The position numbers were made by a program, and so were the translations under genes. From Bacteroidales bacterium (GTDB lineage: Bacteria; Bacteroidota; Bacteroidia; Bacteroidales; UBA932): a stretch of DNA of 64,000 nucleotides. The stretch is taken from NCBI GenBank assembly GCA_012522855.1, contig JAAYJQ010000023.1, positions 1 through 64,000 on the forward strand, written 5' to 3'. Within the stretch, counting starts at the first letter, position 1. Every line of letters starts with the position of its first letter. Under the pieces are notes generated by a model that saw only the letters and a list, made by a program, of their open reading frames with translations, made no database searches and had not been told where the DNA came from. Below, piece by piece: positions 1 to 57,616 of the stretch.

Positions 1-2
1 CC

Positions 3-188
3 CTCCAGTTCACCGTAAACCCCGACGGATCCGTCTCCAACATAAAGGTCCTCCGGGGAGTCGATCCGTCGCTGGACAAGGAAGCGGTACGGGTCGTATC
101 CCTGTCACCAAAGTGGGAGCCCGGAAGGCAGAGAGACCGCGCCGTCAAAGTGACATACACGTTCCCCGTCATCTTCCAGCTCAGATAG
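3..188 (+). CDS. TonB C-terminal domain protein, 3' end only (5' end outside window)
   Basis: Frame 3 reads LQFTVNPDGSVSNIKVLRGVDPSLDKEAVRVVSLSPKWEPGRQRDRAVKVTYTFPVIFQLR*, a typical TonB-C fold ending (GxV..V..GVDPSLDKEAVRVV...W.PG...G..V.V.YT.P..F). Confidence 0.85.
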   Translation, partial: LQFTVNPDGSVSNIKVLRGVDPSLDKEAVRVVSLSPKWEPGRQRDRAVKVTYTFPVIFQLR

Positions 189-241: not shown

Positions 242-348
242 CGTGACCATAACGTATTCATTAGTAATAAATTAAATATTTTCACCCTGGCCGAATCGAC
301 CAGGGTGATTTTATGCTATCGACTGATAATAAAACAATTCCGGTCACG
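242..348 (+). repeat. 107-nt palindromic element, copy 1 (left of transposase)
   Basis: CGTGACC 242-248, N33, TCACCC 282-287, N15, GGGTGA 303-308, N33 (ending TTCC), GGTCACG 342-348. Central stem TCACCCTGG/CCAGGGTGA is 9 bp perfect. Confidence 0.85.
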
Positions 349-466
349 GAAAAATCATTCGAAAAAAATCCAAATTTTTGAACGTACCCTTTTGGGAATT
401 TCGCGCATATTCAATATTTTTGAATAACCTCAGAACTATGAACCAGACTTTTCGAGGCGGGAGATT

Positions 467-1399
467 ATGCAGAAGAAGCGAAAGTTCAATCCAAGTGCAG
501 CCATCCACATCTACCAGAAAACCCTTGACGGAGCGGTTATCTTTTACACATTGTACGACCTGCTTGCGTACATCACCCGATTGTCCGTCAACGCTCGCAA
601 GTACGGCATCACGGTGCTGCTGATCTGTCCGATGTTCGACCATATTCACATCTTGACACTTCAGAAAACACTGGATCAATTATGCCGTTTCGTGGGGAGA
701 ACAACCTCGGAATTTGTCCTGGCATACAATGAAGACTGCGGACGGAAGGGGCCGTTGTTCAGTCCACGCTTCGGCAGTTCCATCAAAAAGATCGACAAGG
801 AAAAGCGCGCCTGCATTGCCTATCTCGCCAACAATGCTCCGGAAAAGAAATTGGTTGCCCGATGCGAGGACTACCGCTGGAATCTAATTGCCTACGCAAC
901 GTGCGATCATCCCTATTCAGACAAAATCGTGCTCAGAAAAGCCTCGCGACAGCTCCGGTCGAATCTGAATCAAGTGGACCGCTGTCTTGAAAGAGAAGAA
1001 CCGCTTGGTTACAAGCATTTGAAAAGGATGTTCAGGGGACTTGCGCGAAAAGAGCGAGAACAGCTGATCGACTACATCCTGAGCCGATATTCACCCATAG
1101 ACTACGATTTGCTGATCAGTTTCTATGGCAACTACCGAAATATGCTTGTGGCGATCAACGCCAACAATGGTCACGAATATGAGATCAAGGAGGAGTACAA
1201 TGTGGATTCGCACGAAGCCTACAAGGAGATGTTGCGTAAGGTGGCGGCACATGGGGGCGAAATCAAAGATGTCCTCACGATGTCGTTCGGACAGAAGATT
1301 GCATTGACGGGCGAACTATTGTGCGAGACCACTGCAACACCCGAGCAGGTCCGGAAGTTCCTCCACCTCAAGAAGGCCCCGGGCGATTTTCTTCCGTGA
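467..1399 (+). CDS. Y1 (HUH) tyrosine transposase, REP-associated/IS200-like family, 310 aa
   Basis: N-terminal Y1_Tnp-like region with the HUH motif (CPMFDHIHIL) and GRKGPLF..RFGSS...AYLANNAPEKK..., similar to Bacteroidales Y1 transposases; about 150 aa C-terminal extension. Confidence 0.8.
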   Translation: MQKKRKFNPSAAIHIYQKTLDGAVIFYTLYDLLAYITRLSVNARKYGITVLLICPMFDHIHILTLQKTLDQLCRFVGRTTSEFVLAYNEDCGRKGPLFSPRFGSSIKKIDKEKRACIAYLANNAPEKKLVARCEDYRWNLIAYATCDHPYSDKIVLRKASRQLRSNLNQVDRCLEREEPLGYKHLKRMFRGLARKEREQLIDYILSRYSPIDYDLLISFYGNYRNMLVAINANNGHEYEIKEEYNVDSHEAYKEMLRKVAAHGGEIKDVLTMSFGQKIALTGELLCETTATPEQVRKFLHLKKAPGDFLP

Positions 1400-1501
1400 C
1401 CAGAATAAATTAACCGACAACGATTTGGTTGTTTTCACCCTAGTAGAAATGGGAAGGGTGAAAACATTTATTTTTCTGAAAATGAATACGTTCCGGTCAC
1501 G
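1395..1501 (+). repeat. 107-nt palindromic element, copy 2 (right of transposase)
   Basis: CGTGACC 1395-1401, N33, TCACCC 1435-1440, N15, GGGTGA 1456-1461, N33 (ending TTCC), GGTCACG 1495-1501. Central stem GTTTTCACCCT/AGGGTGAAAAC is 11 bp perfect. Confidence 0.88.
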
Positions 1502-57193: not shown

Positions 57194-57300
57194 CGTGACC
57201 CTATCTGCCACACTATCTGCCGGATGCTGTTTTTCACCCTCCCCCTATCGCCCGGGGTGAAAACAAGGATAACACTATCGTTTAACCATTTCCGGTCACG
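57194..57300 (+). repeat. 107-nt palindromic element, copy 3 (solitary, intergenic)
   Basis: CGTGACC 57194-57200, N33, TCACCC 57234-57239, N15, GGGTGA 57255-57260, N33 (ending TTCC), GGTCACG 57294-57300. Spacing identical to copies 1 and 2; central stem TTTTCACCC/GGGTGAAAA. Confidence 0.85.
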
Positions 57301-57616
57301 CATCACGCATCGCGTATCACGCCACCCATTAAAAACAACAGTGTTTTATGCCCTAACAATCAGCGCATTATAAATTTCAATGCGTCGGATTTTTGACTGA
57401 TTGAATTCAGTAACATATTTAATCACAATCGTTTGAATAATGCGGAATGAATATATCGCGCCACTGTCTCCACGAGGCGTTCGATGTCGCTACAGCCCGC
57501 ACTCATCCTGGCGAAACCGGAAAAATTCTCCCGGAATCTGTCCTTGCCGCCCCACCAAACCCGTTTGTTTAAATCGTTTATTATTACATCACTTGTTAGA
57601 CTAAACGCTGTGACTC

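Follow-up and report, generated by a model that had tools for sequence, protein, structure and literature searches.

In the window, the 64,000-nt stretch of a Bacteroidales contig analyzed here, a gene for a Y1 transposase is bracketed by two 107-nt palindromes, which raises the question of what these palindromes are and how they relate to the enzyme encoded between them. Most of what is known about REPIN/RAYT systems comes from Proteobacteria and their GTAG elements. A preliminary description of the locus had proposed a REP/RAYT-like family of Bacteroidetes whose element is larger and bipartite, and the dispersed copies, the Y1 association and the geometry kept despite letter change, all reported below, support that proposal. 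The palindromes probably belong to a REPIN/RAYT-like system, in which miniature elements would be mobilized via single-stranded hairpins by a cognate Y1 transposase. Our literature search found no description of the layout or the family; bioRxiv, supplements and most subscription journals lay outside this search.

Anatomy of the palindromes in the window

The features discussed here are as follows.

242–348, no strand assigned: 5′ REPIN-like element (sequence; exact pattern; covariance-model score 81.4 bits), with outer arms CGTGACC (242–248) and GGTCACG (342–348) and inner stem TCACCCTGG (282–290) and CCAGGGTGA (300–308)
467–1399, + strand: Y1/HUH transposase, 310 aa (ORF; NF047646 match; residues invariant in 33 homologs)
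1395–1501, no strand assigned: 3′ REPIN-like element (sequence; exact pattern; covariance model), with outer arms CGTGACC (1395–1401) and GGTCACG (1495–1501) and inner stem 1430–1441 and 1455–1466
57194–57300, no strand assigned: dispersed copy of the window family (exact pattern), between the ribosomal protein L3 gene and a DUF147-like gene
57334–57440, no strand assigned, boundaries approximate: adjacent element of another family (CAGTGTTT...CAATGCGTCGG)

Both flanking palindromes lie exactly where the preliminary description had placed them and have its 7 + 33 + 6 + 15 + 6 + 33 + 7 layout. Their stems are perfect, as it had said, but slightly longer than it gave, the second copy having an outer stem of 8 bp and an inner stem of 12 bp. 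The exact copy at 57194–57300 is a third one that it did not include. Dinucleotide shuffles of the window gave no pattern match (chance expectation 0). A letter-free scan for an inner hairpin plus an outer arm yielded just the three known places when run over all 64 kb; with shuffled homolog-locus DNA (745 kb) as input it returned three matches, one of which had equal gaps and a length of 95–115 nt. The TGA stop codon of the transposase (1397–1399) lies inside the outer arm of the 3′ element (CG-TGA-CC), and this element overlaps the gene end. We also noted that window positions 1–187 are 98% identical to C19:1-187; since both are contig starts, the assembly seems to have broken at a gene end that is repeated.

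The transposase gene

The encoded protein has its HUH motif at H59/H61, a catalytic tyrosine (Y119) in YxxNN, and a C-terminal extension of ~150 aa; the HUH motif followed by a single catalytic tyrosine places it in the Y1 HUH superfamily (IS200-like). Residues H59, H61, Y119, N122, N123, K107, K111 and W138 are invariant in the window protein and 32 homologs, and all 33 homologous frames are open. The window protein matches NF047646 (REP_Tyr_transpos) with an E value of 3.6e-6 and 26.9 bits, below the curated cut-off of 80. All 33 family members match this model at E ≤ 0.1 (best E 2e-13), PF01797 matches 31 of them at E ≤ 0.1, and a profile search reaches ISDra2 TnpA (E 4e-4). In the 33 homologs there is no conserved W at the place of the W[EQ] motif before the tyrosine; the only invariant W is W138, after it. 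The C-terminal extension gave no Pfam match, to an HTH or otherwise. Separately, a QIxKFLH stretch at the C-terminus looks HTH-like. Structure prediction from two sequences returned a mean pLDDT of 49 and was set aside.

Two side observations concern relatives of this protein. The closest paralog in the same genome (L022, G000:C29:28450-29355; 50% identity) is without an element of the 107-nt type and has on both sides a compact ~40-nt hairpin, CCTGACAAAGGTGGCACC-GAG-GGTGCCACCTTTGTCAGG (flanks near 1320-1345 and 2435-2475), whose arms were found nowhere else in the retrieved loci or the window. A second group of ~300-aa Y1 proteins from the same genus (L207-L218, e.g. G039:C14:54336 and G011:C7:15598) matches the family profile only at the N-terminal 140 positions, with an element nearby in one weak case only.

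Dispersed copies fall into families, most of them beside their own transposase gene

The preliminary description proposed searching the genome for the 107-nt layout, and further copies were indeed found. The exact pattern occurs at 10 places in the whole 2.64-Mb genome; nine match the full palindrome (both strands), and the tenth (C4:113842-113948) has a single outer-arm base changed. A covariance model (E ≤ 0.01 in 2.64 Mb) located 44 places, which by their arm letters, grouped by eye, form about seven groups of 15, 8, 8, 6, 4, 2 and 1 members. Five families each flank one divergent paralog: the window gene and those at C6:29079, C21:38846, C29:141517 and C32:29765, the last assigned by direct reading. 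A sixth family, weakly scored by the covariance model, flanks the paralog at C4:106361 and has its copy in the window at 57334–57440; this copy shares 74% identity with C20:25221 and with the sequences flanking that paralog on both sides, and is also repeated at C23, C15 and C29. About seven element families coexist in this one genome, and at least six have a transposase paralog of their own next to them.

The fifteen dispersed copies of the window family, diverged outside their stems, and the copies of other families sit beside unrelated genes, mostly in weakly coding DNA as judged by a crude ORF test. Rfam gave no match for the elements; plasmids gave two weak partial matches only, and phages none. 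These gut bacteria carry, dispersed in intergenic DNA, dozens of hairpin-forming pieces of ~110 letters, with each family apparently tied to its own transposase gene.

A gene between two element copies, encoding an HUH-Y1 enzyme related to IS200 transposases, might also be an insertion sequence of the IS200/IS605 type, with the palindromes as its terminal ends and the dispersed copies as decayed remnants. We regard this as very unlikely. The seven or eight homologs in the genome are single genes, 34–50% identical and none a recent copy, whereas an active IS is marked by near-identical transposase copies, of which none was found in this genome. Moreover, solo elements far outnumber the genes (44 places versus 7–8 genes), and because they stay complete palindromes, each end is a full unit.

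Spacing and base pairing are kept while the letters change

Flanks of homologs from about 37 same-genus genomes carry palindromes of 105–112 nt with left and right gaps of equal length and unrelated arm letters. By the covariance model, an element lies within 400 bp of the gene at 35 of 38 gene loci, on both sides at 21, and the 3′ element often overlaps the gene end by 5–20 bp. The preliminary description had suggested selection on geometry and had named random spacings in homologous loci as evidence against its proposal; the spacings are non-random, and they are kept while letters change also beside homologous genes of other species.

When half-sites are stacked on their centre, each has an outer arm and an inner stem whose letters are specific to its family, and also an nTAA(C) motif, a yTGAnnnTCAG core and, ~22 nt from the centre, a TT; from family to family these features are displaced by about one base. 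The arms are specific to each gene: inner arms are 85% identical between the flanks of the same gene versus 31% between genes, and outer arms 77% versus 44%. For the spacers the difference is small (63% versus 52%).

To follow within-copy pairing we used a single family with 48 distinct copies, drawn from three genomes. Its inner-stem positions 50 and 52 differ from copy to copy, yet the two halves of each copy always match (48/48; z 8.5 and 7.0); for position 48 the value was z 3.2, and outer-arm positions 13–15 gave z 2.2–2.6. Spacer positions had no within-copy excess, except position 26 in the mini-hairpin core (z 4.2). Were common descent or whole-half conversion the cause, the spacers would be affected as well; base pairing of the stems therefore explains the data better. 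Across the alignment, the stems have 87% standard pairs versus 37–45% when slid, figures that are partly circular because the alignment was selected for complementarity; the shuffled-DNA scan, the within-copy pairing and the same-gene versus between-gene arm identities are less circular. Modest support exists for a 3-bp mini-hairpin, TGA-N3-TCA (z 4.2, 1.5 and 3.5 in register, lost when slid). In sum, evolution keeps the spacing and base pairing of the hairpin, not its letters. Across genes, arm similarity scarcely follows protein similarity (Mantel test: inner arm r 0.10, p 0.03; outer arm none), possibly owing to saturation of the signal, as the homologs share only ~38% identity. Covariation of outer with inner arms inside a half-site was set aside, being dominated by related copies.

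The 3′ element regularly contains or overlaps the stop codon of the gene, elements mostly lie in weakly coding DNA, and their inner stems could act as RNA hairpins; this invites another explanation: double-stranded binding sites, or transcribed hairpins such as terminators or attenuators, that are multiplied by other means and that the Y1 gene uses only for its own regulation or termination. Such a role would leave unexplained the fifteen dispersed window-family copies and the other families at unrelated genes, the family-specific arms tied to individual transposase genes, and a presence that follows the gene across genomes (see below); the elements also have no counterpart in Rfam. A plain double-stranded dimer site, in addition, has no need for variable letters to match within each copy. 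We therefore consider this explanation highly improbable and continue with the REPIN-like one.

Insertions absent from relatives and distribution across the genus

Two sites carry element-bearing insertions that relatives do not have. The copy at C19:31730 sits within 187 bp between two genes, the second of which was read as thyA from its product; five relatives have 1–10 bp there. Besides the element, this insertion contains ~77 bp of GC-rich repeat. At the 57194 site, the gap is ~730 bp in this genome, with two element families inside, and ~50–130 bp in several relatives. From these sequence comparisons, both insertions look like lineage-specific gains. The two neighbor genes of the window transposase are non-adjacent in the relatives' matches. 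As a separate observation, the GC-rich tract with repeated GGCGTGGCGG at L130:11850-11935 lies directly upstream of the element before thyA and resembles a repetition of the element's own outer arm.

A strong homolog of the transposase is present in 37 of 61 same-genus genomes (this one included) and in 0 of 40 sampled genomes outside the genus. Across the order, a profile search of 295 genomes (E ≤ 1e-20) reached only this genome and one from another genus of the same family, which has two shorter relatives with an element near one of them. Outside this one genus the system is nearly absent. Among named records, a goat omasum Bacteroidales MAG comes nearest.

Elements turn up in about three quarters of the genus genomes sampled. 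In the presence/absence comparison that the preliminary description had proposed, their presence follows the gene: elements occur in 36 of 37 genus genomes with a strong homolog versus 9 of 24 without (Fisher p 2e-7, treating genomes as independent and leaving shared ancestry and genome incompleteness uncorrected). An exception is G030 (97% complete), which has about 44 copies and no detected transposase homolog; the gene was either lost or lies in the missing part of the genome. Copies in G030 (e.g. L228 and L232) are of the CGTGGGG...TTGTCTATGG family.

The copies that G030 keeps without a detected gene, together with the divergence of window-family copies outside the stems, might suggest relics of a once-active REPIN-like system that is now fixed and only decaying. 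This is unlikely in our view, given that the catalytic residues are invariant, the 33 homologous frames are open, compensating changes are kept in the stems and a lineage-specific insertion is intact. A REPIN-like system that is more than a relic remains our preferred reading.

Comparison with known systems

Like REPINs, the elements are built of two inverted half-sites, form a hairpin in which changes compensate each other, have dispersed and mostly extragenic copies (by the crude ORF test) and are tied to one transposase per family. One REP family per transposase gene is the reported rule (PMC6006769, PMC3116915), and the families here fit it, as the inner arms of a gene's two-sided elements are 85% identical versus 31%. 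A close parallel is with the REPINs of clade I RAYTs in Pseudomonas fluorescens SBW25, whose segments measure 71 or 110 bp: both are inverted half-site doublets of similar total length, extragenic, with compensatory hairpin changes, one transposase per family and a gene flanked by its own elements (PMC3116915). Unlike those of SBW25, the elements here lack a 16-nt invariant GTAG-type REP (PMC3116915); outer ends and inner stem are family-specific, and what the families have in common is a weak spacer motif, nTAA(C)-N4-yTGAnnnTCA.

TnpAREP subclass 2.6 (RAYT group 5) is likewise from Bacteroidetes and without a GT[AG]G consensus, and is flanked by elements, with copies elsewhere in the genome, that the survey covering Bacteroidetes named only 'atypical secondary structures' (PMC6006769); we compared these elements by description. 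Its proteins have the motifs NH[LIV]H, WQ and YIH[QN]NP and a median of 179 aa (PMC6006769), as against [DN]HxH and Y-x-x-N-N, no W in that position, and ~310 aa here. Subclass 2.4 has double-foot REPs, which begin with GT[AG]G (5′) and close with its complement (3′); several families here have outer arms of a similar kind, GTGG...CCAC, and the Y motif (YIxNNP) is similar too. By contrast, the foot of the window family is GTGA, proteins of subclass 2.4 contain WQ, measure ~194 aa and have REPs inserted in their gene, and the two-stem fixed-geometry layout is absent from the description of that subclass (PMC6006769). TIRYTs (subclass 2.1) also have a longer protein with a C-terminal extension, flanking inverted repeats and some moderately abundant families (PMC3733652, PMC6006769). 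However, their TIR consensus GGGGWSAS was not seen on inspection of the window arms, they have a C-terminal HTH, the extension here being without a Pfam match but with the HTH-like QIxKFLH stretch, and the elements here are self-complementary units, not one terminal inverted-repeat pair. We assign the system to no published subclass: the GTAG foot and the W motif were looked for and not found, and the score stays below the equivalog cut-off.

A proposed mechanism

The preliminary description had also suggested that a GTGA/TCAC tetramer common to all four motifs could act as a guide or recognition tetranucleotide, an idea that the data support only in part. Its outer part recurs: among 19 gene families the outer-end foot is GTGG in seven, GTGA (that of the window family) in three and another sequence in nine, so that GTG(G/A) is found in 10 of 19; five more of the 19 have GT followed by other letters. 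The foot of the window family, GTGA, does not conform to the GTAG or GT[AG]G of REPs. The inner TCAC is not common to families and was rejected as part of a shared guide, other families having inner stems such as TTCTCGTTC, CCCTAGGGC and AACCCGGGC.

We propose a REPIN-like role for the 107-nt palindromes, as non-autonomous mobile elements of miniature size. On a single strand, the two inverted half-sites are predicted to fold into a bipartite hairpin with an outer stem of at least 7 bp, two ~33-nt arms, each holding the weak TGA-N3-TCA mini-hairpin, and an inner stem of 9–12 bp. One cognate Y1 (HUH) transposase per family, encoded between two elements of that family, would recognize and copy or move it, acting in trans on the dispersed copies; the outer and inner stem sequences would form the family address, and the fixed spacing would position the stems for the enzyme. 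By analogy with IS608 and TnpAREP, the enzyme may bind its element as a folded single strand, be guided by a short foot, here putatively the outer GTG(G/A), and cut with its tyrosine, presumably Y119. In TnpAREP, the last two letters of GTAG help to choose the cut site (PMC8266576). Four observations weigh against the proposal: the compact hairpins beside the closest paralog, the many copies in G030, the weak link between arm and protein similarity, and the GC-rich repeat that makes up part of the 187-bp insertion.

A further, tentative idea, and one we find rather doubtful, is that the address is modular: a common rigid geometry with a weak core motif might be readable by any of these Y1 enzymes, and swappable paired stems might give each co-resident transposase its private elements. 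If so, specificity could be re-addressed by exchanging stems with complementarity and spacing kept. The families offer a natural series of matched enzyme-DNA pairs, with geometry constant and letters changing, in which one could study hairpin reading by an HUH enzyme and the separation of families that reside together. Lastly, in the G019 family (L147-L171), the inner loops often end in GAT on one half and in AAA on the other, hence this near-symmetric element has a polarity.
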